From Steroidobacteraceae bacterium (GTDB taxonomy: Bacteria; Pseudomonadota; Gammaproteobacteria; Steroidobacterales; Steroidobacteraceae): 64,000 nt of DNA. Made by a program: the position numbers and the translations under genes. Position 1 is the stretch's first letter, and each line of letters starts with the position of its first letter. This document shows positions 14,471 through 61,708 of this stretch, piece after piece. The DNA is taken from the NCBI GenBank assembly GCA_019634915.1, contig JAHCAN010000005.1, positions 56,623 through 120,622 of the forward strand. Direction: 5' to 3'. Under the pieces are notes generated by a model. It was not told the DNA's origin. It saw only the letters and a program-made list of their open reading frames with translations, and did no database searches.

Positions 14471-14666
14471 GCGTTCCGGCGGGCAGCTGACGCCTCCGGC
14501 GACGGGCGTGGAGAGCGCCGAGTCGCGGCGAGCAGCGCCCGGCGTCGGCGAGGGTTCTGCTGCCGCGACACCATTCCGCCGGGCGCCGCCGCGGCGAGGG
14601 CACACCGCCGCAGGCGGTGCGCTCGACCCGCCCGCCGCCGGAGGCGTCAGCTGCCCGCCGGAACGC
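14471..14666 (+). repeat. Structured dispersed repeat, copy 1
   Basis: This fills most of the 346-base gap between the exported NTF2-like gene and the MMPL gene. A core of 106 bases (14516-14621) lies between inverted arms 14471-14515 and 14622-14666. The outer 30 bases of the arms are perfectly complementary and the full 45-base arms pair at about 41 positions. The core carries the family landmarks GGTTCTGCTGCCGC and a hairpin ACCGCC-GCA-GGCGGT. The right arm ends 24 bases from the MMPL stop codon. Short open frames through it (for example a 95-codon one on the plus strand) look like structure, not genes. Confidence 0.8.
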
Positions 14667-14689
14667 CGCGAGCCCGTCAGCCCCGCTCG

Positions 14690-17008
14690 CTAAGCCCCGC
14701 CGGGCCGCCGAACGAGCCAGGCCGCCAGCGCCGGCAGCAGGATGATCGCGCCCAGCATGTTCACGAGGAACATGAAGGTCAGCATCACGCCGATGTCGGC
14801 CTGGAACTTCAGCGGCGAGAACACCCAGGTCGCGACGCCGATCGCGAGCGTGATGCCGGTGAAGATGATGCTCGCGCCGGTCACGCGCATCGTGTGCTCG
14901 TAGGCGTCGCGCACCGACTCGCCCCGGTGCAGGTATTCCTGCATGCGGCTGTAGAGATAGATGCCGTAGTCGACGCCGATGCCGGCGCCGAGCGCGACCA
15001 TCGGCAGCGTGGTCACCTTGAGACCGATGCCGACGATCGCCATGACCGCATAGACGAGCACCGACACGAGCGCGAGCGGCAGCACGACCACGATCACGCC
15101 GAGCAGCGAGCGGAAAGTGAGCAGGCACATGATGCTGACCGCCGCGAACACGCCCGCGAGGATCGGGAACTCCTTCGCCCTGACCTCTTCGTTGGTCGCC
15201 GCCATGACGCCGACGTTGCCGGTCGCGAGCCGGAACTGCGCGCCCGCTACCGGGTTCGCGGCGCGCCATGCCTTCGCGGCGGCGACGATGCGCTCGATCG
15301 TCGCGGCCTTGTGGTCCTCGAGGAAGATGTATACCGGCACGATCGTGCAGTCGGCGTTCAGCAGACCGGTGCTCGTCTCGATGTAGCGTGTCGACTGCGT
15401 CAGCGTGTCGGGGTTGCGCGGGATGCTGCGCCAGGCGAGGCTGCCCTCGTTCCAGCCGGCGATCGCGATCTTCGCCACGTACGGCAGCGTGACCACATCC
15501 TGCACGCCCGCCACGTTCTGCATGTGCCAGGCGAAGCGGTCGACCGCGGTCATCGTGTCGTAATCGACGCACACCGGCTCCGTCGCGCTGACGATCACCG
15601 TGAACACGTCGACGCCGATCGAGAACCGCGACGTGATCAGGTCGCTGTCGAGGTTGTAGCGTGAATCGGCGCGCAGTTCGGGCACCCCGGCCTGCGTATC
15701 ACCGATCGGCGTCTCGCGCCCTTTCCACAGTCCGAAGACCGCGAGGCCGAGCGCGATCGCGATGATCAGCGCCGCCGGAGCGCGGTTCGTGATCCGCGCA
15801 AGGGCGTGCCACCAGCGCGCGAGCCGCGCCTGGCGGGCATGGACCCGCCCGCTGTAGCCAGGGGCGAACCTGACGTAGGACACCAGCACCGGCAGCAGCA
15901 CGAGGTCGGTCAGGATCACGATCGCGACGCCGATGCTCGCGGTGACCGCCATCTCGCGTATCACCTGCACCGGGATCATCAGGATCGTGACGAAGCCGAC
16001 CAGGTCGGCGAGCAGCGCGACGATTGCCGGCGTGAACAGCTGGTGGAAGGTGCGTCGCGCCGCGTCGAGGCTGCCGAGCCCCTCGAGGACCGCGTCGGCC
16101 ACGGCGCTGATCTTCTGCACGCCGTGGCTCACGCCGATCGCGAAGATCAGGAACGGCACCAGCAGGCCGAGCGGATCGATCCCCTGGCCCAGCACGACCA
16201 GCGTGCCGAGCTGCCAGATCACCGCGATGATCGAACACACGACCGGCACGAGCGCGACGCGGAACGATTGGCAGTAGATCCACACCGCGAGCAGCGTCAG
16301 CAGCAGCGTGGCGATCGCGAAGACGATCACGGACAGCGCGCCGGCGGCGATGTCACCCATCACCTTGGCGAAGCCGATGATGTGCACGTCGATGCCGTCG
16401 CCCTGGATCTGCCCGCGCACCCGGCTCTCGAGCTCGCGCGCGATCTTGATCGGGTCGACCGGCCGGCCGTTCGCGTCCTGGTCGAGCACGGTGGCCGTAA
16501 CCAGCGCGCCCGAGAAGTCGTTCGCCACCAGCCGCCCGACGATGCCGGCCTTGAGGATGTTCTCGCGCACCTCGGCCATCGCCGCCGGCGTCGGCTGGAA
16601 ATCGGCCGGCACCACGTTGCCGGCCTCGATACCGTCCTCGACGACCTCGAGATAACGCACGTTCGGCGTGAACAGCGACTGCACGCGGCCGCGGTCGATG
16701 CCGTCCATCACGATCACTTCGTCGGTCGCGCGCTTCAGCGCCGCGAAAAATGCCGGCGTGAACATGTTGCCGTCGCGCGCGACGATCGCGATCAGCACGC
16801 GGTTGGCGCCGCGGAACTCCTCGATCGCCGGATCGAGGTAGGTGCGCATGTATTCGTGCTGCGTCGGCAACTGCTTGGTGAACGATGCGTCGATGCGCAG
16901 GCCGCGCGCGCAGATCACCGCGAACGCGACCGTCAGCAGCGCGAAGACGAGCACGATCGTCCTGCGGTGATCGAAGATCGGGTGCTCGAGGCGGTCGGCG
17001 AGCTTCAT
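14690..17008 (-). CDS. MMPL/RND-family transporter
   Basis: A 772-residue inner-membrane protein of the resistance-nodulation-division superfamily, MMPL branch. It has TM1 at about residues 18-36, a large periplasmic domain, a block of five or six helices in the middle (including FAIGVSHGVQ), a second periplasmic domain and a final helix block ending ILLPALAAWLVRRPG. GAGIGVDYGIYLYSRMQEYL is the GxGxDYxxxL-like motif carrying proton-relay residues. MMPL proteins (MmpL3, HpnN) move lipids or hopanoids using the proton motive force. Its ATG overlaps the stop of the YCF48-like gene by 4 bases (ATGA), so the two are translationally coupled. Confidence 0.92.
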   Translation of the reverse strand: MKLADRLEHPIFDHRRTIVLVFALLTVAFAVICARGLRIDASFTKQLPTQHEYMRTYLDPAIEEFRGANRVLIAIVARDGNMFTPAFFAALKRATDEVIVMDGIDRGRVQSLFTPNVRYLEVVEDGIEAGNVVPADFQPTPAAMAEVRENILKAGIVGRLVANDFSGALVTATVLDQDANGRPVDPIKIARELESRVRGQIQGDGIDVHIIGFAKVMGDIAAGALSVIVFAIATLLLTLLAVWIYCQSFRVALVPVVCSIIAVIWQLGTLVVLGQGIDPLGLLVPFLIFAIGVSHGVQKISAVADAVLEGLGSLDAARRTFHQLFTPAIVALLADLVGFVTILMIPVQVIREMAVTASIGVAIVILTDLVLLPVLVSYVRFAPGYSGRVHARQARLARWWHALARITNRAPAALIIAIALGLAVFGLWKGRETPIGDTQAGVPELRADSRYNLDSDLITSRFSIGVDVFTVIVSATEPVCVDYDTMTAVDRFAWHMQNVAGVQDVVTLPYVAKIAIAGWNEGSLAWRSIPRNPDTLTQSTRYIETSTGLLNADCTIVPVYIFLEDHKAATIERIVAAAKAWRAANPVAGAQFRLATGNVGVMAATNEEVRAKEFPILAGVFAAVSIMCLLTFRSLLGVIVVVLPLALVSVLVYAVMAIVGIGLKVTTLPMVALGAGIGVDYGIYLYSRMQEYLHRGESVRDAYEHTMRVTGASIIFTGITLAIGVATWVFSPLKFQADIGVMLTFMFLVNMLGAIILLPALAAWLVRRPGGA

Positions 17009-17997
17009 TGCAGCGCGATCCGCTCGACGCCCGCCTCGCCGACCGCGAGCAGCGCGTCGGCTCCCGCAGCGACGACGCCGGCGAGGCCCTTGCGGTCCTC
17101 GCGCTGCTCGAGCGTGAAGCTCGCACCACTGTCGCGGCTCACGAGCACGGCACCCGACAGACCGACGATCGCGAGCGTGTGCGCATCGAGGCGCGTGCCG
17201 GCGGTCAGCATCGCGACCGTATCGGTCGGCAGCCTCGCCCAGTGCGCGCCGGCATCGTCGGAGCGGAACAGATTGCCGCGCAGGCCGAAGACGAGCAGCG
17301 AGTCACCGTCGAGCGGCAGCAGCCCGTACATCGATCCGTCGTAGGGCAGCGGCAGCAGCCGCCAGCTCGCGCCGCCATCGTCCGAGCGGTAGACCTGCCC
17401 CGCCTCGCCGGCGATGTAGAGCCGCCCGCCGGCCATCGCGATCCGGTTCAGGTGATAGTCCATCGGCAGATCGTCGCCGTCGGCCGCGTCTGCCGGCGCG
17501 CGATTCACGACGACGAATGGCTGCGCGCTCCAGCTCTGCCCGCCGTCGCTGGTCGTGTAATAGGCGGCGTAAGCGCCGATCGCGATCCCGTGCTGCGCAT
17601 CGGCGAACCACACGTCGAGCAGCGGCCGCTGCGCCTGCGGCGCATCGTGCACGAGGGTCCAGCTGGCGCCGCCGTCGGTCGTGCGCAGGATCACCTCGTC
17701 GTGCCCGACCGCCCAGCCGTGCCGCGCATCGATCAGCGTCACGGCGGTCAGCAGCGCGGTGGTCGGTACCCGCGGCGACTGCCGCCAGCTCTCGCCGGCG
17801 TCGTCCGAGACGAGGATGTGGCCACGCGCACCGACCGCGATGCGCGTGTCGCCGTGGGCGGCGACATCGAGCAGCAGCGAGTGCGCCGCGAGCGGCGCGA
17901 CCCAGGAGTCGCGCTCGCCTGCGGTACCCGCCGGCACCGCCATGACGGCGCCCGCCAGCAGCGCGAGCGGCGCGAATCTCAGGCGATCACCGCACAC
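17005..17997 (-). CDS. YCF48/BNR-repeat periplasmic beta-propeller protein
   Basis: About 330 residues with repeated S-D-D-G/T-x-D-x-G-x-x-W motifs (VSDDAGESW, RTTDGGASW, TTSDGGQSW, RSDDGGASW, RSDDAGAHW, VSRDSGASF), which form a sialidase-type propeller related to the photosystem assembly factor Ycf48. I choose the GTG at 17997, which overlaps the DUF1329 stop by 11 bases and leaves a hydrophobic leader (FAPLALLAGAVMAVPAGTAG); the frame is open to 18057. In non-photosynthetic bacteria this family is commonly encoded with MMPL, DUF1329 and DUF1302 proteins, as here. It is probably a periplasmic partner of the MMPL pump. Start codon is uncertain. Confidence 0.85.
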   Translation of the reverse strand: MCGDRLRFAPLALLAGAVMAVPAGTAGERDSWVAPLAAHSLLLDVAAHGDTRIAVGARGHILVSDDAGESWRQSPRVPTTALLTAVTLIDARHGWAVGHDEVILRTTDGGASWTLVHDAPQAQRPLLDVWFADAQHGIAIGAYAAYYTTSDGGQSWSAQPFVVVNRAPADAADGDDLPMDYHLNRIAMAGGRLYIAGEAGQVYRSDDGGASWRLLPLPYDGSMYGLLPLDGDSLLVFGLRGNLFRSDDAGAHWARLPTDTVAMLTAGTRLDAHTLAIVGLSGAVLVSRDSGASFTLEQREDRKGLAGVVAAGADALLAVGEAGVERIALQ

Positions 17998-19360
17998 CGC
18001 GTCGCTGCAGCTGGCTCGGCTGGTAGTCGGCCGCGCTGCGCTGGATCGAGAAATCATAGCCGCGCGGCTCCTCGTTCTGCAGTCCGAGCGCGAGGTAGCG
18101 CCCGTTGCTGAGGTCCATCACGGTCTCGAGCGTCGTCCACAGCGACGGCACGTCGTAGAACTGCATCGCGTGGCCCTCCTGCACGCGGTACAGCTCGCCG
18201 CGGCGGTCGTAGCAGTCGACCGCGAGGATCTGCCAGGAGTCCTCGTCGACATACAGCGTGCGGCGGCTGTACAGGTGGTTCTGGCCCGGCTTCAGCGTCG
18301 AGTCGACCACCCATACGCGATGCAGCTCGTAGCGCGCGAGGTCCTGGTTGATGTGGTTCTTCTGCAGGATGTCGCTGTACTTGAGCTTGTTGCTCGCGAT
18401 CCGGTAGGAATTGTACGGGACATAGATCTCGCGCTTGCCGACCAGCTTCCAGTCGTAGCGCTGCGGGCTGCCGTTGTACATGTCGAGCTGGTCCGACGTG
18501 CGCAGGTTGTCGGAGTTCGTGCCCGGATTGTCGAACGCGACGTTCGGCGCGCGCCGCACGCGGCGCTGGCCGGGGTTGTAGACCCAGGCCTTGCGGTTCT
18601 CGACCGACTGGTCGAGCGTCTCGTGCACCAGCAGGATCTCGCCGGCGAGGCGCGCCGGCGCGGTGGTCTCCTGGATGAAATAGAGGATGATGTTGTTCAG
18701 GTTGTCGGACGTGGCGCCCGGCATGCTGTAGGCGGCGAAGGTGTCGTCACGGAACTTCACCAGCGTGTAGGCGCCCGACGCCGTGACCGGCGCCTGGCCG
18801 ATGTTGCGCAGGACCGCATTCGCGCGATAGCGCAGGATGTGGTTCCAGAACACCTCGACGCCTTCCTTCGGGATCGGGAACGGAATGCCCTCGCCCGCGC
18901 CGGTGACGCCATTGCCGCCCGCCGCGAGCTGTGCGGTCGTCGCGATGCGCCGCGTCGCGTCGTAGATGCGCTGCGGCACCGCCGCGCTGCGATGGGTCGG
19001 GTACACGATCATCCTGTAGGTCGCGCCGTACTGCTGCAGCAGCTTCTTCTGGCCCTCGGTCAGACGCCCCGCGTACTGCGCCATGTTCGCCGCGGTGATC
19101 GTGAACAGCGGCTTGTCGGACGCATAAGGGTCGGGACGGTGATCGCCGCTGCGGTAGGACGCGACACCGGCCTTCGCCGGCGTGTCGAGCCCGCCGGTCC
19201 ACGCCGGGATCGTGCCCTCGGCATTGCCCTGCTTCTCGCCGCCGAGCGGCGTCAGGTCGGCCCCGAGACGCGCCGCTTCCTGCGCGCTGATGGCCGGCCA
19301 GGCGGGAGCCGAAGCGAGCGCGACGGCCACGGCGATCAACCGGATGAGTTGCGTTGACAT
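17987..19360 (-). CDS. DUF1329 periplasmic protein
   Basis: A 457-residue exported protein: MSTQLIRLIAVAVALASAPAWPA is a signal peptide and GGAG lies 7 bases before the ATG at 19360. The segments GADLTPLGGEKQGNAEGTIPAWTGGL and ...NPGQRRVRRAPNVAFDNPGTNSDNLRTSDQLDMYNGSPQRYDWKLVGKREIYVPYNSYR are typical of DUF1329. The family is sometimes annotated as outer-membrane lipoprotein-sorting-like, with a large curved sheet that could hold lipid. It sits between the DUF1302 barrel and the YCF48/MMPL pair, so a periplasmic lipid carrier between the two membranes is the natural guess. Function is not experimentally settled as far as I know. Confidence 0.9.
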   Translation of the reverse strand: MSTQLIRLIAVAVALASAPAWPAISAQEAARLGADLTPLGGEKQGNAEGTIPAWTGGLDTPAKAGVASYRSGDHRPDPYASDKPLFTITAANMAQYAGRLTEGQKKLLQQYGATYRMIVYPTHRSAAVPQRIYDATRRIATTAQLAAGGNGVTGAGEGIPFPIPKEGVEVFWNHILRYRANAVLRNIGQAPVTASGAYTLVKFRDDTFAAYSMPGATSDNLNNIILYFIQETTAPARLAGEILLVHETLDQSVENRKAWVYNPGQRRVRRAPNVAFDNPGTNSDNLRTSDQLDMYNGSPQRYDWKLVGKREIYVPYNSYRIASNKLKYSDILQKNHINQDLARYELHRVWVVDSTLKPGQNHLYSRRTLYVDEDSWQILAVDCYDRRGELYRVQEGHAMQFYDVPSLWTTLETVMDLSNGRYLALGLQNEEPRGYDFSIQRSAADYQPSQLQRRGVR

Positions 19361-19379
19361 GTGCTTCTCCATGGCGCGC

Positions 19380-21479
19380 TCAGAATGAATACTTGACGGT
19401 CGCGGACATGTAGTCGCGGTCGCCCAGTTCGTTCCAGCGCCCCGCGCCCGCGAACTTCGTCCATGCAAAATCGACTTCCCAGGTCGCGCGCAGGTTCGCA
19501 CCGACGCCGAGCGTGAGGCCATAGCGCCCTTCCTGGAAATTGCCGCCGGGCCCCGGCGAGACGCCCTCGACGTCGTGCTGGAACGCGAAGCGCGGCAGCA
19601 CGTTCCACGGGCCGACGAGGCCCGGATACTCGAGCCGGCCCGCGAGCCGGTAGCCCCACGAGGTCGCGTCGGCGAACCTGCTCTGCGGCTCGACTTCACC
19701 GAAGTGGCGCGCGGCCAGCTCCCCGTTGCCGCTGACCGAAGTGGCCGGGCCGTTGTAGCGCAGTCCGCGCCCGTTCGGCCCGCCGGTCAGCTTGTTCTCC
19801 ATGTCGAACACATGGGTCACGCCGAACTCGGCGACCAGCACGAGCTGCGAGGCGCGCAGCACGTTGGCGATGGACTTCGTGGCCGTGAACTGGAACTGGC
19901 CGACGTCGTGCGGCTCCCAGCCGCGGATCTCGGTGTTCAGGCCATAGGCGCCGAACTGGCCGCAGCGGCTCAGCGTGGCGCCGGCGCCGGGCAGGCAGGT
20001 CGTCGGGAACGGCGTGCCCGCGGGCTGCGTCGCCGCGAACGCCGCCTGCTCGAACGGCGTCAGCGCGGCGAACAGCAGCTCGACGTCGTCGAGCTGCAGC
20101 GGCTGGTCCATACGATAGGTGAACTCGCCCTGCAGCGCGATGCCGGTGCGCTGCAGCTGCGTGTTGAACGACAGCCCGATCAGCTTGATGTCCTCAGGGT
20201 ACTCGGTGAAATAGCCGGCGGTGCGCGCATATTCGTGCGTGCCGATGTTGGTCGCCTGCGCGGTCACGTTGCCGCCCTGCAGATGCGTGTTGGCGCCGAT
20301 CGTCGCGTACTGGGTGGCGGTCGCGAGCGACAGGTCGCCGCCCGCCGCCGCCGCGCGCTGCACGGCGACCTGCGCCGCGGTCGCGATCGCGGCATTCAGC
20401 GGCAGGCCGGCCGCGAGCCCCTGCGCCGCGGCGCCGACCGCGGTGATGCCGCCGATCGAATTGCCGATGCCGGCCTGCGTGCCGGTGCGCCCGCTGATCA
20501 CCGGCAGGCGGCTGTGGTAATTGAGGAAATACAGGCCGAACTCGGTGCCGTTGTTGAAGTTCGGCAGGTAGAGTTTCAGGTTGACGCCGTACTGGCCCTG
20601 CTCGTCGGGGGTGCGCGTCGCGAGGCGCGGCACCTGCTGGAAATCGGCGATCAGCGGCCCGCCGACCGCGCCGAAATCGACACCCTGGTCCGAGAACGCG
20701 CCGAAGCCGAGCAGCACCTTGTTGCCGCCGGTGACCGCGATGTCGTTGGTGCTGAAATACGAGCCGACCGGCTCCGGTATCGTTGCGTCCCAGTCGGCGA
20801 TGTAGACCGCCTGGCCGCTCAGGTAGTCGTTGAACTGCAGCGACAGCAGCGCCATCTCCTGCGGCATGAAGCCCTCGCGCAGCTCGGAGCCCGGCACGCG
20901 CAGCGCCGCGACGTCGAAGTGGTTGATGACGTTGATGCCGCCCTGGATGAAGGTGCTCTCGCCCCAGCTCGCGACCTGGCGGCCGAGGCGCAGCTCGCCC
21001 TGCGTCGCCCCCTCGCCGAATTTCCAGTAGACGAAGGCATCGAGCAGCCGCTCGTAGCTGCCGACCAGCTGCTTCGCGCTGTCCGACAGGCGCGTGCGCG
21101 CGGTGTTGCCGCCCATCACGTCGAAGTCGTAGAGCGCCGCGCCGCGCACGAACAGGCCGACGTCCTCGTAATTGAGGCCGAACTCGGTCACGATTTTCGC
21201 CGCCCGGCTGAACAGGCCCTGCGGGTAATTCAGATCGCCGTCGTCGCCGTTGGCCGAGCGGCCGCAACCGCCGTTGGCATTGGCGATCAGCCGGCAGTCA
21301 CGGTCCTCGATGCGCCAGGCCTGGCCATAGCTCAGCGTGGTGTCCCAGCTGCCGCGCAGCGTGCCCGCCTCGTTCTGGAAGTCTATGCCGTGGGCGGGCA
21401 GCGCCACGATCGTGGCGGCGATGCCGGTCGGGAGTGTCCATCGCAGCCAGCGCCCGCAGGTCCTGCTGAATGTCTTCAT
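19380..21479 (-). CDS. DUF1302 outer-membrane beta-barrel protein
   Basis: A 699-residue outer-membrane protein. It begins with a signal peptide (MKTFSRTCGRWLRWTLPTGIAATIVALPAHG), preceded by GGGGATCG, and then IDFQNEAGTLRGSWDTTLSYGQAWRI, a DUF1302 N-terminus. The C-terminus YMSATVKYSF ends in Phe as barrel proteins do. A central stretch with many Ala/Gln/Thr residues ([39 protein letters not shown]) looks like an extracellular or plug-like insertion. It is the first gene of the four-gene set with DUF1329, YCF48 and MMPL, and would be the outer-membrane port of that system. Confidence 0.9.
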   Translation of the reverse strand: MKTFSRTCGRWLRWTLPTGIAATIVALPAHGIDFQNEAGTLRGSWDTTLSYGQAWRIEDRDCRLIANANGGCGRSANGDDGDLNYPQGLFSRAAKIVTEFGLNYEDVGLFVRGAALYDFDVMGGNTARTRLSDSAKQLVGSYERLLDAFVYWKFGEGATQGELRLGRQVASWGESTFIQGGINVINHFDVAALRVPGSELREGFMPQEMALLSLQFNDYLSGQAVYIADWDATIPEPVGSYFSTNDIAVTGGNKVLLGFGAFSDQGVDFGAVGGPLIADFQQVPRLATRTPDEQGQYGVNLKLYLPNFNNGTEFGLYFLNYHSRLPVISGRTGTQAGIGNSIGGITAVGAAAQGLAAGLPLNAAIATAAQVAVQRAAAAGGDLSLATATQYATIGANTHLQGGNVTAQATNIGTHEYARTAGYFTEYPEDIKLIGLSFNTQLQRTGIALQGEFTYRMDQPLQLDDVELLFAALTPFEQAAFAATQPAGTPFPTTCLPGAGATLSRCGQFGAYGLNTEIRGWEPHDVGQFQFTATKSIANVLRASQLVLVAEFGVTHVFDMENKLTGGPNGRGLRYNGPATSVSGNGELAARHFGEVEPQSRFADATSWGYRLAGRLEYPGLVGPWNVLPRFAFQHDVEGVSPGPGGNFQEGRYGLTLGVGANLRATWEVDFAWTKFAGAGRWNELGDRDYMSATVKYSF

Positions 21480-21571
21480 GTCGATCCCCACGCCGCGATC
21501 CGGCATGTGCACGGGTCAGGTGTCCGGCGTCGCGCGATCGCGCACGCTCTTTTACAAACATAGCACGCGGC

Positions 21572-24007
21572 TCAGGCGTGCACCACTTGCAGGATGCTGT
21601 GGCGGATCTCTCCCGACAGCACGAACTCGGCGTCCTGCGCGACGCGCAACAGCACCTCGTCGAACACGAGCGCGCCGCCGCTTTCGGTGCGGATCACGCC
21701 GCGTTCGCGCAGGCGATCGACGAAGTCGCCGAACAGGCCGCGGTCGAAGAACTCCGGCGAGTTGAAGCCGTGCAGCATCGTCATGCGCTGCGCCATCAGC
21801 TGGCAGCGCTCGACGAGCGCCGCCTGCGTGACCCGGCCGCTGCCGGAATCGATCAGCGCCGCGATCGCGAGATAATAGCGCTCGACGGTCTGGATCGTCG
21901 CCTGCGCGAGATGCGACAGCTGCACCGCCTCCGGCGTCGTCGGCGGCGCGCGCCGCCAGCCGCTGCCGTCGGCGTCGGCGGTCACGAGCCCGCGCGCAGC
22001 GAGCGCGGCGAGCAGCGCGTCGGTCACCGCCGCGCACTCCTCCTCGGGCCAGCGCAGGAACAGCTCGGCGGCGACGTACGGATAGATGCGCCAGACGAGC
22101 CGGTGGATGTCCGCCGTGCGCATCATCGAGTTGCCGACGAACGCGCAGGCGATCAGCGACGGCATCGCGAACAGGTGCAGCACGTTGTTGCGGTACCAGG
22201 CCGACAGCACCGCGTTCTCCTCGCTCATGCGCACGATGTCGCCGAGCTTGTGCGGCTGGCGGGTCAGCAGCTTCATCGATTCGCCGTAGGCGAGTATCGC
22301 CTCGGGCGACTCGGTCGTGACCGTGACACGCGCGCTGTACGGCACCGCGCGCAGCAACGCGAGGTACAGCCCGATCTGGCGCAGCAGGTCGGCGCGCAGC
22401 ATCGCCTGACGCGGTGTCGCGAGCAATATCAGTGCGAGCAGGTTCACCGGCGTGACGGCCGCCGCGGCATTGATGTGCCGCATGATGCGCCCGGCGACGT
22501 CGTCGACGACGTGCGCGATCCACGGCGCACGCGCCTCGCCCGAGAGCGCCTGCGCGCGCCAGTCGGGCGCGAGGCGTTGCAGGGCCGCGTCGAGCGCGAC
22601 CGGCTCGCCGAGGTTCACGTGCACGCGGCCGAACTTCTCGCGCAGCACGCGCAGCGAGCGCAGCATCCCGGCGATGCTCTCCTTCTCCTTTGGCTTGCCC
22701 GACAGTTCGCTGACGTAGGTCGCCGCCTCGACGACGCGCTCGTAGCCGAAATACACCGGCACGAACACGATCGGCCGCACAGGATCCCGCAGGTAGCTGC
22801 GGATCGTCATCGCGAGCATGCCGGTCTTCGGCGGCAGCAGCCGCCCGGTGCGCGAGCGGCCGCCCTCGATGAAGAACTCGAGCGAGTGGCCGCGCGCCAT
22901 GATCGTCGCGAGATATTTCATCAGCACGACGGTGTAGAGCGCGTTGCCGCGGAAGCTGCGGCGGATGAAGAACGCCCCGCCCTTGCGCAGGAAGCGGCCG
23001 ACCACCGGCATGTTGAGGTTGACGCCGGCGGCGATGTGCGGAATCGCATAGCCCTGGCGGTAGATCGCGTAGGACAGCAGCAGATAGTCCATGTGGCTGC
23101 GATGGCAGGGCACATAGACGACCTCGTTGCCGTCGGCGACCTCGCGCAGCGTGTCGACGTGGCCGAGGATCACGCCGTCGTACAGCCGGTTCCAGACCCG
23201 CCGCAGCACCGCCTCCATGACCGTGACGAAGCGGTGCGAGTAATTGGCCGCGATCTCCTCGGCGTACTTGCGTGCGGTCAGCAGCGCCTCACGGCGCGTG
23301 ACCTGCCGCTCGCGCATCTCCTGCGCGGCAGCCGCCCGCACCGCCTGCGTGCGCAGCACCGCCGCGACGATCGTGCGCCGGTGCGAGAGATCCGGCCCGA
23401 TGCGGGCGGCGCGCTGGCGGCCGAACTGCGCGCGCGCGGTGCGCGCGATGCGCCGCGCCTCGAGCTTCGGGTCGCGCTCGCCCTCACCGAGCAGGCTGCG
23501 CAACGACACCGGCGTGCCGATCTCGACCATCGTCGCGCGCCCGTTGAAGATCACGGTCAGCGCCTTGCGCAGCCGCGTGGCGAGCGCCCAGTCCTCCGAC
23601 AGCAACAGGCGCAGCCAGGAGTTCTCCTTCTGCGGCGCGCGGCCCCAGTAGACCGCGGCCGGCACGAGGTCGACGTCGAGCTGCGGGTTGCGCTTCAGGA
23701 TCGCGATCAGCTCGCGCAGCGCATCGGGCGGGCGGCGGTCGATGCGCGCGCTCCAGAAATTCAGCGGGCGCGACAGGTAGAACCAGGCGCGCAGGCGCCG
23801 CAGCTCGCCGCCGCCGAGGCGCGCGCCGGGTCGCGGCAGGTTCGCCTGCGCACAGACATTCTGCAGCACGGCCAGGTCGGACGAGCTGCGGCGCTCGAGC
23901 ACATAGCAGACCGGCGCCGGGCGCGCGGCGAGCCGTGCCGCGACGTCATCGGGACGCAGCGTCGCGCGGACCCAGAGCGAGAGCAGGCGGCGAAGCAGCC
24001 ATTCCAT
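21572..24007 (-). CDS. plsB: Glycerol-3-phosphate 1-O-acyltransferase PlsB
   Basis: An 811-residue membrane-associated acyltransferase that makes 1-acyl-glycerol-3-phosphate, the first step of phospholipid synthesis. All PlsB acyltransferase motifs are present: YVPCHRSHMDYLLLSYAIY (HX4D near 301), GAFFIRRSFRGN, EFFIEGGRSRTGRLLPPKTGML near 380, and IVFVPVYFGYERV. The length agrees with the Escherichia coli enzyme. It is cytoplasmic-face, monotopic. The ATG at 24007 has GAGGG upstream. It is separate from the DUF1302 operon (92-base gap) and follows a small esterase gene on the same strand. Confidence 0.95.
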   Translation of the reverse strand: MEWLLRRLLSLWVRATLRPDDVAARLAARPAPVCYVLERRSSSDLAVLQNVCAQANLPRPGARLGGGELRRLRAWFYLSRPLNFWSARIDRRPPDALRELIAILKRNPQLDVDLVPAAVYWGRAPQKENSWLRLLLSEDWALATRLRKALTVIFNGRATMVEIGTPVSLRSLLGEGERDPKLEARRIARTARAQFGRQRAARIGPDLSHRRTIVAAVLRTQAVRAAAAQEMRERQVTRREALLTARKYAEEIAANYSHRFVTVMEAVLRRVWNRLYDGVILGHVDTLREVADGNEVVYVPCHRSHMDYLLLSYAIYRQGYAIPHIAAGVNLNMPVVGRFLRKGGAFFIRRSFRGNALYTVVLMKYLATIMARGHSLEFFIEGGRSRTGRLLPPKTGMLAMTIRSYLRDPVRPIVFVPVYFGYERVVEAATYVSELSGKPKEKESIAGMLRSLRVLREKFGRVHVNLGEPVALDAALQRLAPDWRAQALSGEARAPWIAHVVDDVAGRIMRHINAAAAVTPVNLLALILLATPRQAMLRADLLRQIGLYLALLRAVPYSARVTVTTESPEAILAYGESMKLLTRQPHKLGDIVRMSEENAVLSAWYRNNVLHLFAMPSLIACAFVGNSMMRTADIHRLVWRIYPYVAAELFLRWPEEECAAVTDALLAALAARGLVTADADGSGWRRAPPTTPEAVQLSHLAQATIQTVERYYLAIAALIDSGSGRVTQAALVERCQLMAQRMTMLHGFNSPEFFDRGLFGDFVDRLRERGVIRTESGGALVFDEVLLRVAQDAEFVLSGEIRHSILQVVHA

Positions 24008-24555: not shown

Positions 24556-24574
24556 CGGTTCATTGTAGCGCCTC

Positions 24575-24919
24575 TCACGCTTTCCAGAGCCACGCGTCGA
24601 GATCGGCCGCGCCCGTGCCGCGCGCCGCCGCGACGACGCGGCTGCCGATCACCTCGCGCCCTTCCGCGCGCAGGCGCCGGCACTGTTCGCGATGCAGGCG
24701 CGAGCCGGGCGGAAACGCGATGCGCCCGCCGGCGCCGATCACGCGATGCCAGGGCAGCCGCAGCGACGGCGGCGCCGCCTTCAGCGCCACCGCGACCCAG
24801 CGTGCGCGCCGCGGCAGGCCGGCCTGCCGCGCCACTTCGCCATAGCTCAGCGTCGTGCCGCGCGGTATCGCACGCACGACCCGCCAGACGCTCGCCAGCG
24901 CCACATCGCGTTCATCCAT
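24575..24919 (-). CDS. Alkyltransferase-like protein (ATL), MGMT family
   Basis: A 114-residue protein with the DNA-binding fold of O6-alkylguanine-DNA alkyltransferase. The active-site motif is LPWHRVIGAGG near residue 55, with Trp where alkyltransferases have the reactive Cys (PCHR). This marks it as an ATL protein, which binds O6-alkylguanine lesions and hands them to nucleotide excision repair without removing the alkyl group. VWRVVRAIPRGTTLSYGEVARQAGLPRRARWVAVAL is the helix-turn-helix part. The ATG at 24919 is back to back with the first possible ATG of the divergent oxoprolinase gene. Confidence 0.9.
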   Translation of the reverse strand: MDERDVALASVWRVVRAIPRGTTLSYGEVARQAGLPRRARWVAVALKAAPPSLRLPWHRVIGAGGRIAFPPGSRLHREQCRRLRAEGREVIGSRVVAAARGTGAADLDAWLWKA

Positions 24920-24953
24920 AATGTCGGCTTCTCCGGTGACATTGTATGGGCTC

Positions 24954-41528: not shown

Positions 41529-41700
41529 GGGGTTAGGCTAGCCATGCCGCCCCCGCAAGACTGTGAGCGCCGGCACAGTCCCCCTGCGCCGGCGGGGCCG
41601 GGGCTGAGAACTGGCGCAAGAAAACCGACAATCCGGCCGCGGGGCGGCGCCGTGGCGCTGTTTTGCGGCAGCGCCCTGACGCCGTGGCGCGCTGGCGCGC

Positions 41701-41889
41701 TGGCGCAGTGACCCGTGGCTTTGCCGGGCGCTCAATGGCGGGCGCGCCGCCTGCGGCGGCGTACCCTCGGCGCGGCGGCGCTCGGCGAAGTGGAACCGCG
41801 GTGACTGAAGCCTTGCGGACGCCTCGCTTTGCCCGCCGCACCTCGGCGCCCTCCATTCGCGCCCGGCAAAGCCACGGGTCACTGCGCCA
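41701..41889 (-). repeat. Structured dispersed repeat, copy 2 (reverse orientation)
   Basis: This lies in the 433-base gap between the divergent small gene and greB. The outer 31 bases of the arms (41701-41731 and 41859-41889) are perfect inverted copies, and the arms continue with one gap to the 106-base core at 41743-41848. Read on the minus strand, the core matches copies 1 and 3, with the hairpin GCCGCC-GCA-GGCGGC. The rest of the gap is GC-rich with GCGCTGGC tandem repeats near 41690; I see no gene there. Frames of about 140 codons across the element are judged spurious. Confidence 0.8.
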
Positions 41890-41961
41890 GCCCACCGCCG
41901 CGCGGGGGGAGGGTGCGTTATCGTGCAGCGGTGCCGCAAAAGCCGGAGGGTCCGCCACAAA

Positions 41962-52039: not shown

Positions 52040-52047
52040 GACCGCGC

Positions 52048-53249: not shown

Positions 53250-53315
53250 CGCGCGTCGCGGCTTGGCAAGCGCGGCGCGCGGCGCCGGCGCCGCCGGCGT
53301 TAGCATCGCAACTGC

Positions 53316-53549
53316 GTGGCTGAGCAACCGAAAAACCGCCCTTCCGGCCAGCGTCCCCGGACTCTCGAGGTCGAGGACTACCGCAGCGAGAAGAGCACCA
53401 ATCCGTACGACCGTGTCGACATCGCCGGCAGGCCCGACACGCCCGGCACCGGCACGACCCGGCGCGACCTGCGCAAGCTCTCCGAGTGGATCAAGCTGAA
53501 GCGCGAGATGGAAGCGCGCAAGCAGCGCGGCGAGGACGAGCCGGACTGA
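53316..53549 (+). CDS. 77-residue hypothetical protein
   Basis: A GTG-initiated ORF of 77 codons. It is highly polar with no membrane segment: LEVEDYRSEKSTNPYDRVDIAGRPDTPGTGTTRRDLRKLSEWIKLKREMEARKQRGEDEPD, where the second half should form a charged helix. No family recognised. It lies 66 bases after the Nudix gene and converges on the gene at 53554 with a 4-base gap. A TAGCAT -10-like box precedes it by 9 bases. Codon use fits its neighbours. Confidence 0.65.
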   Translation: MAEQPKNRPSGQRPRTLEVEDYRSEKSTNPYDRVDIAGRPDTPGTGTTRRDLRKLSEWIKLKREMEARKQRGEDEPD

Positions 53550-53553
53550 GCCG

Positions 53554-54207: not shown

Positions 54208-54220
54208 GCGCGGGCCGCCG

Positions 54221-54850
54221 TCAGTGCCGGAACGCCGTGCGCGCCGCCGCCGACGGCGCGACGCCGAGCTTCGACAGCAGCCGCTGCGCGCGCCGGCTGC
54301 CGGTCGCGAGCCACAGTTCGTAGAGGCGCAGGATGTCGCGGTCGCTGTGCTGGTAGCCCGATTCGCTGACCTCGTTCAGCGCATCGACCAGCTGCTGGAA
54401 CTTCGCCGCGAGCTCGCCGAACACCGGCCCGAGCGAGTGCTGCCCGGTGCGCCTGACCGCATCGGACAGCGTGCCGTAGGCGCGGCCGCCCATCGCGATG
54501 TGGTAGTCGATGTCGACCAGCTTGCGCGCGAAGCCCTGCGCGAAGAAGCCGGCGACGAACAGCGACACGTCGCCGAGCCGCTGCAGGCCGGCGCAGCGCT
54601 GCTGCGTCGTGCGCGCCTCGAGCGCCTCGGTCAGCAGCACGACGAGCGGCCGCAGCCGCGGGCCCTCCGGCGTCTGGTCGAACAGCGCCTCGGAGCGCGC
54701 GAACAGCGTCAGCATGTTCACGACGTACTGTTCGGTCTGGCCGCCGATCTCGACGTGCTGGTGCAGCAGCGCATCGCGCACCGCATCGCGGAAGAACTCG
54801 CGCAGACTGTGTACCGCGACGACCGCGGCCGGCTGACGTGTATTCGACAT
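54221..54850 (-). CDS. Conserved hypothetical protein, 209 residues
   Basis: A soluble, helix-rich protein. I start at the ATG at 54850, which has GGAG 10 bases upstream; the frame remains open to 54994. The central part reads HSLREFFRDAVRDALLHQHVEIGGQTEQYVVNMLTLFARSEALFDQT and LQRLGDVSLFVAGFFAQGFARKLVDIDYHIAMGGRAYGTLSDAVR. No family recognised. It forms an operon with the downstream 217-residue protein and diverges from the MFS transporter. Confidence 0.78.
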   Translation of the reverse strand: MSNTRQPAAVVAVHSLREFFRDAVRDALLHQHVEIGGQTEQYVVNMLTLFARSEALFDQTPEGPRLRPLVVLLTEALEARTTQQRCAGLQRLGDVSLFVAGFFAQGFARKLVDIDYHIAMGGRAYGTLSDAVRRTGQHSLGPVFGELAAKFQQLVDALNEVSESGYQHSDRDILRLYELWLATGSRRAQRLLSKLGVAPSAAARTAFRH

Positions 54851-54957
54851 GCTGCCAAGACTCCACACGCGGCCGCGTGCAGGCAAGTGTGCGACGTCAC
54901 GGTTCTGAATTGGCAGCCGAGCGACTAGACTGCTGATTGCGACGGGGGTCACAACGC

Positions 54958-56229
54958 ATGACGCGCTATCAATGGCTGGTGCTCGCAGCCGCATGGCTCG
55001 GCTGGGGCTTCGACGTATTCGACGCGCTGCTGTTCAATTTCGTGGCGCCGAACACCGTGCCGACGCTGCTCGGGCTCGACCGCGGCAGCGATGTCGCGCG
55101 CGACGCGACCGTGCTGTGGACCGGCATCCTCTCCTCGATCCTGCTGGTCGGCTGGGCCGCGGGCGGCGTGCTGTTCGGCTGGTACGCCGATCGCTACGGG
55201 CGGCGGCGTGCGCTGTTCGTCACGGTCGCGCTGTACGCGGTCGGCACCGCGCTGTGCGCCGCATCGATGAACATGGGGCAGCTCGTGCTCTTTCGCGCGC
55301 TCGCGAGCCTCGGCATCGGCGGCGAGTGGGCCGTCGGTGCCGCGCTCGTCGCCGAAAGTGTGCCCGAGAGCCGGCGGGTGTTCGCCGGCACGCTGCTCTA
55401 CACGGCCTCGCCGATCGGCCTGCTGCTCGCGGGCGCCGTGAACTACCAGGTCGCGGGCGTCTGGTTCGCCGACGATCCGGCCAACTCCTGGCGCTATGTG
55501 TTCCTGTGCGGGCTCGCGCCGGTCGCGCTCGCGTTCGCGGTGCGCGCGTTCATCCACGAGCCGCAGGCCTGGACGCAGGCGCGCCGCACGACGGCGCCGC
55601 CATCGCCGCGCGAACTGTTCGCGCCGGACGTGCGACACGCGACGCTGGTGGGCTTTCTCGTCTCGGTGGCGGGGCTGCTGACCTGGTGGGCCTGCAACGC
55701 CTTCGTGCCGCTGCTCGGCGCATGGCTTGCGGCCGAACATGCGCCGGCGCTCGTCGAACGGTGGAAGACGATGGCCGCCAATGCGTTCAATCTCGGCGGC
55801 CTCGTCGGCGCGCTCGCCGCGGTGCCGCTCGCGCACTGGCTCGGACGGCGCGCGATGTTCACGACCTATTTCCTGTATTCGGCGATCGCGATCGTCGTGA
55901 CCTTCGGCCTCGATCTTGCGCCGGAGCTGCGCATCCGGCTGCTGTTCTGCGTCGGCCTCGGCGTCTACGGCATCTTCAGCACCTATGTGTTCTACCTGCC
56001 GGAGCTCTTCCCGGCCCGGCTGCGGGCGAGCGGCGCAGGATTCTGCTACAACATCGGCCGCATCTTCGCGGCGCTCGGACCGCTGGCCGTCGGCATCGTG
56101 ACCGCGCGCGCCGACGGCTCCTCGTCGGCACTGCTCGCGACGATGCTCTGGGTCGCGGTGATCCCGCTCGCCGCGGCACTGTTCTCGCCGTGGCTCGTGA
56201 TCGAAACCCGCGGCCAGGCACTCAAATGA
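54958..56229 (+). CDS. MFS transporter, sialate:H+ symporter (SHS)-like
   Basis: A 423-residue, 12-helix major facilitator. GWGFDVFDALLFNFVAPNTVP in TM1, motif A GWYADRYGRRRALF between TM2 and TM3, and ASLGIGGEWAVGAALVAESVPESRR after TM4 match the SHS/metabolite:H+ symporter families for organic acids. The helix pair around the middle carries an expanded loop. It would import or export an organic acid across the inner membrane; the substrate is unknown. It is followed 13 bases later by the S9 peptidase gene with a perfect AGGAGG ribosome site, so the two are probably cotranscribed. Confidence 0.88.
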   Translation: MTRYQWLVLAAAWLGWGFDVFDALLFNFVAPNTVPTLLGLDRGSDVARDATVLWTGILSSILLVGWAAGGVLFGWYADRYGRRRALFVTVALYAVGTALCAASMNMGQLVLFRALASLGIGGEWAVGAALVAESVPESRRVFAGTLLYTASPIGLLLAGAVNYQVAGVWFADDPANSWRYVFLCGLAPVALAFAVRAFIHEPQAWTQARRTTAPPSPRELFAPDVRHATLVGFLVSVAGLLTWWACNAFVPLLGAWLAAEHAPALVERWKTMAANAFNLGGLVGALAAVPLAHWLGRRAMFTTYFLYSAIAIVVTFGLDLAPELRIRLLFCVGLGVYGIFSTYVFYLPELFPARLRASGAGFCYNIGRIFAALGPLAVGIVTARADGSSSALLATMLWVAVIPLAAALFSPWLVIETRGQALK

Positions 56230-56242
56230 CAGGAGGCTGAAG

Positions 56243-58293
<2,051 letters not shown>

Positions 58294-58297
<4 letters not shown>

Positions 58298-58707
58298 CGG
58301 CGGCGGTTGTAGGGATCGTAGCCGCCGCTCTTGTCGTCCTCGATCTTGAGCTCGTGATCGTCCTCGATCTTGAGCTCCGGCGCCTCGAGGCGCTTCAGCA
58401 GCTTCGAGGTGCTCTCGAGCGCGAACACGCCGGTCGCTACCGCAATGTCCCAGACGGCATTGCCGCGCTCGTCGTGCCGTACGCGGCCGGACCCACCCTC
58501 GCCGGGCGCCGCGGCAGTCGGCCGCGCCGGGGGGACCGGCTTCGACGCCGCGGGCGGGCCCGACTTCGGCGCCGCGGGCGGCGGTGGCTTCGGCACCGCC
58601 TGCTCCGCCTCGCCGGCCTCCCGGGCCCGCATCTGTTTCATCCGCAGTGCACGCAGCCGCTGCGTCGTGTCGTCGAGCTTGCGGATCGTGCGTGAAATGA
58701 AACTCAT
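58294..58707 (-). CDS. Pro-rich hypothetical protein with an 8-residue repeat
   Basis: A 137-residue protein: a charged helical front (MSFISRTIRKLDDTTQRLRALRMKQMRAREAGEAE), a Pro/Ala linker and a C-terminus with ELKIEDDH-ELKIEDDK in tandem, encoded by a 24-base-period duplication (58335-58353 and 58359-58377). The end is KSGGYDPYNRRR. No family recognised. It overlaps the S9 peptidase gene end by 4 bases, and its ATG is 10 bases from the stop of the CpcT-like gene on the same strand, so it may be the last gene of that operon. Confidence 0.72.
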
Positions 58708-58717
58708 CGCCGCATGC

Positions 58718-59320
58718 TCAATGTGAGCCCGACTTGACGAAGCGTTCGAGCGCCTCGTCTTCGCGCCCGCCGATCATGCGCCCGGCGGCATCGAACCAGC
58801 GCTCGGCGCGCGCGTAGTCGTCGGCGGTGAGTTCCGCACGCGCCTCGAGGAACGCAAGGCCCCCGCCGGGCCGCGTCGCGCGGCAGTGCGCCCTGTCGTT
58901 CGTGCCGACGAAGCGCTCGCCGTCCTTGACCCACAGCATCTCGCAGCCCGCCATCACCTTCAGGTCCTGCTCCATCAGGCTCTTGAACAGCTCGGGATGC
59001 TGCACGCCCGCGCGCCAGCGGCCGGGATCGGCGAGCTGGTAGCTCGCCTGCACGATCTGCCGGTCGATCACGTCGAAGGCGATGATGCGCTGGGCGAGCA
59101 TCTGGCGGTGGCTGTCGGTCGCCGATTCCTCGGCGAAGAACACATGGTCGCTCAGGAACGGCGCGTAGACCGGAACGAAGGCGATGTCGGCGGCGTCGCG
59201 CGCGTAGGTCCCGGGCAGCCAGGTCGCGAGCTCGCCGAGTTCGGCCTTGCGCAGCTCCTCGGTATTCGAGCAGGCCGCGAGCAGCACGGCACAGAGCAGC
59301 GCGGCACAACGTTCAGTCAT
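58718..59320 (-). CDS. CpcT/CpeT-family (chromophore lyase-like) lipoprotein
   Basis: A 200-residue lipoprotein (MTERCAALLCAVLLAACSN, lipobox LAAC) with the CpcT/CpeT fold: LATWLPGTYARDAADIAFVPVYAPFLSDHVFFAEESATDSHRQMLAQRIIAF, ASYQLADPGRWRAGVQHPELFKSLMEQDLKVMAGCEMLW. In cyanobacteria this family attaches bilins to phycobiliproteins; here there is no phycobilisome and the protein is exported, so a ligand-binding role is more likely. Its ATG overlaps the stop of the ATP-grasp gene by 8 bases, which fixes the start and shows coupling. Confidence 0.85.
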   Translation of the reverse strand: MTERCAALLCAVLLAACSNTEELRKAELGELATWLPGTYARDAADIAFVPVYAPFLSDHVFFAEESATDSHRQMLAQRIIAFDVIDRQIVQASYQLADPGRWRAGVQHPELFKSLMEQDLKVMAGCEMLWVKDGERFVGTNDRAHCRATRPGGGLAFLEARAELTADDYARAERWFDAAGRMIGGREDEALERFVKSGSH

Positions 59321-60347
59321 AGAACACCCGCCATTCCGCCCGGTAGCCGAGCCCCAGGCCGATGATACGCTCGAGCAGCTCGCCGTAGCCGATACCGGCG
59401 GCGAGGGCTGACTGCGCGAAATCCTCCTCCTCGGAGAGGTTCGGGTTCGCGTTCGCCTCGAGCACGAACATCCGCCCGTCCGGCGCGAGCCGGAAGTCCA
59501 TGCGCGCATAACCCGACAGCCCGAGCGCGCGGTAGATGCGCCGCGACAGCGCATCGAGCCGGCTGACGATCTCGCGCGGCAGTTCGTCGGCCGCGCGCGT
59601 CGTGATGCCGTATTTCTTCTGGTAGCGGCGGTCCCACTTGACCTTGCGGGTCGCGATCGCCGACAGCGAATCGGGCATCGAGCCGAACACCATCTCCCAG
59701 ACCGGCAGGCGCGTCAGGCGGTCGTTGCCGAGCACGCCGACGTACAGCTCCTGGCCCTCGATGAACTCCTCGACGAGCGCGTTCGAGCCGATCTGCTCGT
59801 GCACGAAGCCGACGCGCTCGCGCAGCTTCGCCTCGTCCTCGACCACCGACGCCTGGGCGATGCCGAGCGAGGCGTCCTCGGTGGTCGACTTGACGAACAG
59901 CGGGAACTTCAGCCTCTTCGGCAATTTGAACTTGACGCCCTTCCTGAACACCGCGAACTGCGGCGACGGGATGCGGTGATAGGCGAACAGCTGCTTGCAG
60001 ATCGACTTGTCGCGCGACAGCAGCAGGCCGCGCGGGTTCGAGCCGGTGTAGGGCTGGCGCATCAGCTCGAGGAAGGCGACGACGTGCTGGTCGTAGGTGA
60101 CGATGCCGTCGAACTCCTCGAGCAGGTTGAAGACGATGTCCGGCCGCCAGTCGGTGATCGCCGCGCGCAGCTCGCTCAGCGTGTCGAGCACGCCGAGGCA
60201 GCGCACTTCGTGGCCGGCCGACTTCAGGTTCGAGATGACGTCGTATTCGGTGCGCCATTCCCCGATCTGCTTCTCGGAATGGCCGTCGAGGCTGTCGGGC
60301 GGCACGAGGGTCGCGTGGACGACGACCAGCACCCTGAGTTTTTTCAT
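59313..60347 (-). CDS. ATP-grasp ligase (D-Ala-D-Ala ligase-like)
   Basis: A 344-residue ATP-grasp protein resembling D-alanine-D-alanine ligase: VFNLLEEFDGIVTYDQHVVAFLELMRQPYTGSNPRGLLLSRDKSICKQLFAYHRIPSP, KFPLFVKSTTEDASLGIAQASVV (ATP Lys), ALVEEFIEGQELYVGVLG and YARMDFRLAPDGRMFVLEANANPNLSEEEDF (Mg-binding Glu/Asn). It would join a carboxylate to an amine with ATP, possibly a peptide or dipeptide rather than D-Ala, as this group is distinct from DdlB. It is coupled by ATGA to the upstream zinc-peptidase gene and by an 8-base overlap to the CpcT-like gene. Confidence 0.88.
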   Translation of the reverse strand: MKKLRVLVVVHATLVPPDSLDGHSEKQIGEWRTEYDVISNLKSAGHEVRCLGVLDTLSELRAAITDWRPDIVFNLLEEFDGIVTYDQHVVAFLELMRQPYTGSNPRGLLLSRDKSICKQLFAYHRIPSPQFAVFRKGVKFKLPKRLKFPLFVKSTTEDASLGIAQASVVEDEAKLRERVGFVHEQIGSNALVEEFIEGQELYVGVLGNDRLTRLPVWEMVFGSMPDSLSAIATRKVKWDRRYQKKYGITTRAADELPREIVSRLDALSRRIYRALGLSGYARMDFRLAPDGRMFVLEANANPNLSEEEDFAQSALAAGIGYGELLERIIGLGLGYRAEWRVFYD

Positions 60348-61432
60348 AGCCTCATCTGGGGGCTGGTACTGTCGACGTAGAGCCGCACGACGCGCGACAG
60401 CACCCAGCGCGCATTGCGCAGCGCGTCGCGCCGGCTGCCGCGCGGATAGAGCCTCAGCTGCTCACTGCGTTCGATGATCATGCGCAATATCTGGATCGCA
60501 CTATAGCGCGCGACGCCCTGTTCGCGCACCACCGCGTCGATGAGCTCGCGGCGCGCGGCGCGGATCAGCGTGCTCGCGCGCGGCGTCGTGCGCCGCGGGC
60601 GATTCGGCGTGAACGCCTTCGAGAGCAGCACGTCGGCGAGGCCGCGGCGGTACTGGTTGTGGCGCTCGATCTTCTCGGCATAGTGCTCGCCGAGCGTGCG
60701 CGTCAGCGTGTCGATCGGTTCGATGCGCGTGCGCGAGCGCACGGCCGGGCGCCGGCCGCGCAGCTCGCTCATCAGCTCGTCGACGAGCTCGAGCTTCTGG
60801 AACGCGGGCCAGTCCGCGTAGCTGCGCCGCCACGACGAATTCGGCGTCAGCCACACCGCGAAGGTCTCGGCGAAATCCTCGGTCGGATGCGCCTGCGCAT
60901 ACCAGTCGCCGAGGTGCTGCACGTAGCGGCGGCTGCCGGGCCGCGCGCGGTAGCGGTCGGGGTAAGGCAGCGAGGCGGGGCCGAAGGTCTCGCGCCAGCG
61001 CTTGCGCCGGCGCAGCCGGTACGCGGTGTCGAGCGCGTGCCCGGCCTCGTGGCGCAGGATGCGCCTGAGCCATTGCGCGTTGCCGCCCTCGACGTGCTTC
61101 ATCATCGTGCGCTCGAGCCGCTCGAGGCGCGGATGGGCGAGATAGAACGGGATCGAGATGCCCGGCACGCCGTCGGGCGAGAACCACTCCTCGCCGATCC
61201 ACGCGTGCGGGCGGAAGTGGATGCCGCGCCGTGCGAGATCGGTGTACAGGCGCCGCAGGTGGCGCGCGAGCGGCGTGCGCTCGATCTTCAGGTGGAGATC
61301 GCAGAAGCGCATCGCGAGCAGATCCTCGTCGCCGAGACGCGCCCACGCGACCGCGCGCCGCCGGCGCCGGGCAGCCGCCACCGGCACGCGATGGCGCGCA
61401 GTTCCGTGTGCCTTGCGACTCGCGGTCGGCAT
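60344..61432 (-). CDS. Putative zinc-binding metallopeptidase
   Basis: A 362-residue protein. ILRHEAGHALDTAYRLRRRKRWRETFG holds HEXXH and HPTEDFAETFAVWLTPN the third metal ligand Glu, in the pattern of the putative zinc-binding metallopeptidase family. FRPHAWIGEEWFSPDGVPGISIPFYLAHPRLERLERTMMKHVEGG before it is equally conserved. No signal peptide, so it is cytoplasmic unless secreted otherwise. The ATG at 61432 has a weak ribosome site; the first 25 residues are Arg-rich. The gene ends in a 4-base ATGA overlap with the ATP-grasp gene. Confidence 0.84.
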   Translation of the reverse strand: MPTASRKAHGTARHRVPVAAARRRRRAVAWARLGDEDLLAMRFCDLHLKIERTPLARHLRRLYTDLARRGIHFRPHAWIGEEWFSPDGVPGISIPFYLAHPRLERLERTMMKHVEGGNAQWLRRILRHEAGHALDTAYRLRRRKRWRETFGPASLPYPDRYRARPGSRRYVQHLGDWYAQAHPTEDFAETFAVWLTPNSSWRRSYADWPAFQKLELVDELMSELRGRRPAVRSRTRIEPIDTLTRTLGEHYAEKIERHNQYRRGLADVLLSKAFTPNRPRRTTPRASTLIRAARRELIDAVVREQGVARYSAIQILRMIIERSEQLRLYPRGSRRDALRNARWVLSRVVRLYVDSTSPQMRL

Positions 61433-61495
61433 CGGTTGGGGATCCTCGGACGGTGACCGGCTCAGGATAACACCCTGCCCCGGGGTTGCGGGGCC

Positions 61496-61708
61496 GGTGG
61501 GCGCGGGAGCCGCGGGGTTTGCCCCGTCCTTTTCCTCGCGTGGAGATCGCCGAGGCACGGCGGGCAAAGCGAGGCGCTCCGCGACGGTTCTGCTGCCGCA
61601 GTTCAAATTCCCGCCGAGCGCCGCCGTGCCGAGGGTACGTCGCCGCAGGCGACGCGATCGACCCGCGAGGCGGCGGACGGAGCAAGCCTCGCTGCGCCCG
61701 CGTCTGCC
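61496..61708 (+). repeat. Structured dispersed repeat, copy 3
   Basis: This fills the 308-base gap between the zinc peptidase and the phosphatase/ADP-ribosylglycohydrolase gene. Arms 61496-61549 and 61655-61708 (54 bases each) pair without gaps at about 39 positions, around a 105-base core 61550-61654. The core matches copy 1 in orientation and carries the hairpin GTCGCC-GCA-GGCGAC. The right arm ends 33 bases from the stop codon of the fusion gene, as copy 1 ends near the MMPL stop. No gene is seen in the remainder of the gap. Confidence 0.8.

Follow-up and report, generated by a model that had tools for sequence, protein, structure and literature searches.

A dispersed, structured repeat family of Steroidobacteraceae with signs of mobility and a marked placement at gene ends

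REP/REPIN (BIME) sequences with their RAYT (TnpA-REP) partners are described as intergenic, dispersed and palindromic repeats that lie for the most part between genes that converge or run in one direction and that often form head-to-head doublets, which are thought to be the mobile unit (PMC3116915, PMC3733652, PMC8266576). Bacterial miniature inverted-repeat transposable elements (MITEs) such as Correia/NEMIS, ERIC and RUP are described as non-autonomous, about 100-200 bp long, folded into long stem-loops and mainly intergenic (PMC2229807). In integron attC sites the structure is kept while the sequence varies, and the folded single strand is the substrate (PMC2727003); template switching (quasipalindrome correction) is one described way to keep stems paired despite sequence change (PMC8794818). 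Here we analyze a 64,000-nucleotide stretch from a Steroidobacteraceae bacterium (positions 56,623 to 120,622 of contig JAHCAN010000005.1, assembly GCA_019634915.1; the window below), in which a first-pass annotation made from the letters alone had marked three related intergenic repeats, here called E1, E2 and E3. All three are present where that annotation placed them and align through a common core, and they are members of a real, structured, dispersed family that is found in Steroidobacteraceae, shows signs of mobility and is placed markedly at gene ends.

The expectation that the genome would hold more than three copies was borne out. A covariance model (R1) built from 18 own-genome elements finds 19 family copies at E <= 0.01 in the own genome (G000; the assembly is 2.78 Mb and judged 79% complete), and a DNA search of this genome with E1 gives 20 places that represent 18 distinct elements, E2 and E3 included, the other two being E1 against its own reverse and one 26-base match. 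All seven genus genomes searched (G000 to G006) are positive, with 19, 7, 1, 10, 3, 30 and 3 R1 matches, respectively. Outside the genus one of 52 other relatives is positive (G016), and among 396 genomes drawn from the order, only a few candidates per genome being scored, the eight positives are the seven genus genomes and G217. A second model (R2), built from 60 copies, has a match at E <= 0.01 in 16 of 150 genomes of the family Steroidobacteraceae. Of 29 later matches, 27 were folded (L083 and the weakest L245 match were excluded), and inspection of the folds upholds G016, G217, G316 and G388, which belong to two further genera of Steroidobacteraceae, g10 and g11. The folded matches of g2 and g19 are unsupported. 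L243 (G406) and L244 (G401), outside the genus, have no stem and were dropped, and three weak R2 matches (G024, G031 and G225) stand outside the fold inspection. The long stem is present too at G003 locus L240, which lies outside the first locus set.

An exact-pattern scan of GTDB genomes returned 46 stretches, 26 of which lie in genus contigs; the remaining 20, from lineages outside the genus such as Bradyrhizobium and Streptomyces, lack the long stem when folded and are therefore counted as chance. Viral contigs gave zero exact-pattern matches, phages gave zero matches to E3, and plasmids searched with E1 gave one partial match of 51 bases. Rfam 15 at gathering score has no match in the window or in six other loci. 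Among the papers listed by our literature searches, which covered few subscription journals and so are weak evidence of novelty, none seems to describe this family.

The conserved core is about 120-130 nt long and forms a T-shaped three-way junction; the 105-106 bases first proposed for it proved too short, and the covariance model gives 126, 126 and 129 nt for E1, E2 and E3. In the 75 aligned copies the core is made up of the inner part of stem P1, a hairpin P3 and a long arm P2 whose loop varies (these alignments, like those of the 60 R2 copies and the later matches, were fitted to the covariance model). Its helices are paired in 95.8% of cells, against 86.2% in shuffles, and two-sided changes occur at 23 of 30 core pairs, against 10.0 in shuffles; none of 500 shuffles was as good, and core covariation is above both controls. 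Folding z-scores against 200 dinucleotide shuffles each are -12.1 for E1, -13.0 for E2 and -5.6 for E3, with no shuffle as good.

One strand carries a distinctive set of motifs. The P3 loop reads C-GNA-G in 69 of the 72 copies that have letters there, on that strand only, and GA/GA is found at the P2 base in 65 of 75 copies, at P1 in 49 of 75 and also, on the one strand, at the arm starts, where the first six arm positions hold 135 G.A against one C.T (54/71 copies with clear arms; here and below, 71 copies means 70 genus copies and L083). At P2b the motif is GA/GA in 31 of the 75 copies, CC/GG in 25 and GA/TC in 7, the latter two being Watson-Crick alternatives to the GA/GA positions. In DNA, C-GNA-G loops and sheared GA pairs have unusual stability, which would speak for a DNA form. 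Because the GA/GA motifs and the C-GNA-G loop are strand-specific, the motif-bearing strand, which we call +, is likely the folded one. The core also has 34 G.U against 9 A.C cells, an excess that would agree with a single active strand and makes no distinction between DNA and RNA.

The junction is closed by an outer stem that extends about 31-35 bp past the core. The inverted arms noticed at the outset are real, although unequal in quality: 34 of 35 arm positions are paired in E1 and 33 of 33 in E2, but only 27 of 36 in E3. In G000 the two arms of one copy are at least 80% paired in 18 of 19 copies, and per-position pairing is at least 0.79 over the first 31 positions and at most 0.68 beyond them; in the relatives it falls at the same position, and the first few positions there are G.A rather than pairs. 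Over arm positions 6-30 of the 19 G000 copies, a copy's own arms are 96.4% complementary, as compared with 48.6% between copies, where the highest cross pair reaches 0.68. The outer stem has a fixed length and a copy-specific sequence. The cores of L105 and L110:10227, for example, differ at 2 of 129 positions (98.4% identical), with arms that resemble each other no more than random pairs do. When the arms were considered as guides with matches elsewhere, E1 and E2, the only two queries tried, gave no arm match above chance in their own genome.

Such arms could be explained if the core alone moved and the arms were made anew at each insertion, as an inverted copy of the DNA on its flank. The uniform arm length would suit this, as would the 12 G000 pairs with cores more than 90% identical, in all of which the likeness of the outer arms stays at the random level (0.40-0.60, random mean 0.50). 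At sites shared between genomes, arm likeness stands out in 4 of 21 comparisons (ranks 0/16, 3/486, 0/48 and 1/16), and in the other 17 it is weaker, near background or below, which again speaks for new arms. In G005, however, arms and core travel together: of 37 pairs with cores more than 90% identical, 26 have a likeness of 0.70 or more in both outer arms. In addition, the one empty site studied in detail, that of E2, shows no arm as native DNA; we regard this explanation as highly doubtful. A conserved terminal-inverted-repeat sequence is largely present in G005, partly present in G217 (by eye) and absent in G000.

Most elements sit shortly past the stop codon of a gene. Positions and arms were counted in 70 of the 74 genus matches (left out were two contig-end cuts, L077, which is without P2, and a weak, overlapping L065 match), and genes were called by codon score with a home-made program, for which the window served as training set, so that single neighbors can be wrong. 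In 56 elements the 3' side abuts the 3' end of a gene and in 11 the 5' end, while 2 face another element and 1 has no gene on that side, and the core-to-stop distance is 15-116; on the 5' side the corresponding numbers are 23, 9, 31 and 7. In the other genera 21 elements were counted (20 of the 27 folded matches and L083, leaving out L243, L244, L240, both L239 and two L245 matches), and on the 3' side 15 of them meet the 3' end of a gene and 5 a 5' end, with no gene beside the remaining one; distances are 22-123 on the 3' side and 80-1269 on the 5' side. Thirty of the 47 clusters with genes on both sides lie in convergent gaps. Where two elements form a cluster, they stand head to head (-,+) in 14 of 15 cases, which are not all independent, as seven G005 clusters have one common spacer of 167-171 bases; many G005 copies are of common ancestry, so that neither pair nor position counts are independent. 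The gene-end rule may, on few cases, come from retention rather than targeting.

This orientation toward gene 3' ends and the frequency of convergent gaps, together with the fold, the core covariation and the excess of G.U over A.C, would also suit a structured RNA, in which the + strand, transcribed from the opposite direction, stops or slows antisense transcription into the abutting gene or protects transcript ends. Against it, G.U makes up only 34 of 2161 cells, no Rfam family matches, and numbers that range from 1 to 30 matches among congeners argue against a fixed role at given genes. An intrinsic terminator (a hairpin and then a T-run) at P3 was also considered, and no such site occurs at the P3 hairpins of the two loci scanned, L226 and L230. 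We therefore treat a structured RNA as a tentative possibility, on the unlikely side.

E2 is an insertion that is missing from six of six relatives. Matches to its two flanks lie 0-9 bases apart in these genomes and about 320-330 bases apart in the window; five of the six were also read in alignment, and G003 is counted as empty from its 9-base match spacing. The E1 site is occupied in G003 and G004 as well, and inspection by eye suggests that G002, which is without the whole element there, may keep a remnant; no match came from G001 or G005, and the G006 contig ends there. The E3 site holds three elements in G005 and a different hairpin in G004, with none in the sequence inspected of G001, G002 and G006 and no match from G003. 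We also note that at the site of L105 the relatives (L208, L207 and L209) have an apparent collapsed element in G005 and other palindromes with heptad-like repeats in G006 and G004 (by eye). The first-pass annotation suggested that the repeats might be miniature mobile elements or structured RNAs; the 1-30 matches per congener, the E2 insertion and the core covariation back both halves of this suggestion.

Cores resemble one another within genomes. The nearest core neighbor comes from the same genome for 52 of the 71 rows that have enough letters (out of 75), against a mean of 14.4 and a maximum of 28 in 1000 shuffles. At shared sites the flanking DNA is 75-87% identical, and ten comparisons of cores at such sites give 66-86% identity, always lower than that of the best G000 paralogue. 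Judged from these comparisons, the clustering would fit either within-genome homogenization or fresh arrivals at the same sites. Pre-existing long hairpins were considered as targets, and none in the window scores >=17. A long-hairpin scan of 535 kb of loci found only another hairpin family, in G001 and G004 loci; this second repeat, about 75 nt with near-perfect arms GCCGGGTTTTCGG...CCGAAAACCCGGC, lies at L193 1409-1483 and at L172 2897-2971 and 3880-3954, in G004 and G001.

Some pairs of elements enclose genes. In G001 (L064 3634-4790) a TacA1-like antitoxin and a PIN-domain protein lie between two elements with the same arms, and the sister site in G004 has a single element. Three element pairs in G217 flank 1.4-2.4 kb; open reading frames (ORFs) in two of these gaps match DJ-1/PfpI, YqeY, DUF1697 and TfoX_N, and the third contains three ORFs, none with a Pfam match. 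At L226, the sole locus profiled for G+C content, both gaps are lower than their surroundings. In the other paired-element spacers inspected, by eye and with no domain scan, no gene was recognized. Further toxin-antitoxin-like ORFs, judged by eye from translations, lie beside elements at L067 2373-3049, L104 5231-5479 and L226 9324-9794, the last with no Pfam match.

An attC site lies after its cassette gene, and both the position after stop codons and the strand resemble attC here; the enclosed genes of G217 and G001 could then be single-gene cargo that a tyrosine recombinase moves by way of a folded strand, which lies at the 3' end of the upstream gene and is antisense to it. We consider this very improbable, since no R box pairs (RYYYAAC / GTTRRRY) occur in the 60-nt flanks of any of the 71 copies, the conserved part is at the tip rather than the base, and the common G005 spacer is without a recognized gene. 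The family nevertheless shares with attC the keeping of structure over sequence, with a folded single strand as candidate substrate.

The likenesses to the other described systems are similarly partial. Like REP/REPIN sequences, these elements are intergenic dispersed palindromes at gene ends that form inverted doublets, but they are about 200 bp long instead of the 20-40 bp of a REP, contain a three-way junction, and in G000 have no conserved stem sequence. Their dissimilarity to classic REPs, already remarked in the first-pass annotation, holds in two further respects. PF01797 (Y1_Tnp), the candidate RAYT mover, is found in none of the seven genus genomes, some of whose assemblies are incomplete, and 7 of the 71 copies have a GTAG within a zone of 22 bases at the stem's outer end on the 5' side, compared with 2.9 expected from shuffles (the CGTC tag was not scored), so that GTAG is above chance in few copies and is not a defining tag. 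G016, in which one element copy was found, has six Y1_Tnp (RAYT-type) matches (L164-L169). As in MITEs, the elements are non-autonomous, of similar size, mainly intergenic and built on a long stem-loop; they differ in being GC-rich and in the absence of a fixed-sequence terminal inverted repeat in G000, and the possible target duplication at E2 matches at 5 of 7 bases as placed by eye. Template switching differs from all of these in being a mutational process rather than an element family.

To the reading that we prefer we give about an even chance: a non-autonomous mobile DNA family of Steroidobacteraceae, REPIN- or MITE-like in behavior but with its own structure, that is retained at gene ends. 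One strand of the core would fold into the T, with P1 as outer stem, P2 as long arm and P3 as hairpin, and machinery acting in trans, which we infer to recognize the folded DNA strand and not an RNA, would spread the copies, some units being head-to-head pairs that in places have cargo between them. Copies would be retained mainly just downstream of genes, often in convergent gaps and antisense to the abutting gene, where strong structure might be tolerated or be useful as a block to oppositely directed transcription. The outer stem would be needed for its length and pairing and not for its sequence, selection and template-switch (quasipalindrome) correction could keep it paired during sequence turnover, and the cores would be homogenized within each genome.

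Several observations weigh against this reading. E2 breaks the gene-end rule, as does L105; the E2 target duplication is imperfect and was placed by eye; and at several sites an element is present in two or more species, which could reflect long-lived rather than active elements. Folding energy shows no strand preference (the + strand is lower in 34 of 66 cores as RNA and 29 of 66 as DNA), the G.U excess fits RNA too, and outer-arm mismatches are approximately strand-symmetric. The search for a mover, made in the seven genus genomes with PF01797 as the one enzyme family, turned up neither a transposase nor a recombinase, and the statistics are limited by the energy shuffles, the alignment fitting and the shared ancestry of copies. 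A bolder form of mobile DNA family would be a structure-read system in which the T-fold is recognized by junction and stem length alone, the stem is remade in each copy, and pairs carry single genes or toxin-antitoxin genes into post-gene gaps by means of a recombinase not yet known; this we think improbable.

In the window itself (Table 1), the claim that the repeats occupy every gene-free gap over 300 bases stands for three of the four such gaps given by our gene calls and fails for 24556-24941, which is without an element. Around E3 there is one terminator-like site, inside its left arm, and the adjacent ORF (61741-63654) encodes an ADP-ribosylglycohydrolase domain and a dual-specificity-phosphatase-like domain.

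Table 1. Repeat elements of the window and their associated features
Feature	Position	Strand	Basis or remark
E1 (arms and core)	14471..14666	+	right arm ends ~23 nt before the stop of an opposite-strand MMPL-family gene (14690-17008, -)
E1 core, three-way junction	14506..14631 (126 nt)	+	covariance model
E2 (arms and core)	41687..41903	-	arm pairing, folding
E2 core	41733..41858 (126 nt)	-	covariance model
E2-carrying insertion, approximate extent	41639..41950	-	just before greB start codon 41962
Possible 7-bp target duplication at E2	41632-41638 / 41951-41957		5/7 identical, placed by eye
E3 (degenerate arms and core)	61496..61708	+	74 nt from core end to the stop codon of the gene on the opposite strand at 61741
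E3 core	61538..61666 (129 nt)	+	covariance model

The family adds to the dispersed bacterial repeats one whose structure is unlike that of REPs. It is also a natural experiment on the upkeep of paired stems, as one genome holds the same junction and stem length with unrelated stem sequences, and its placement at gene ends permits a direct test of repeats as blocks to convergent transcription. Finally, it is a caution that apparent sets of terminators may be mobile DNA.

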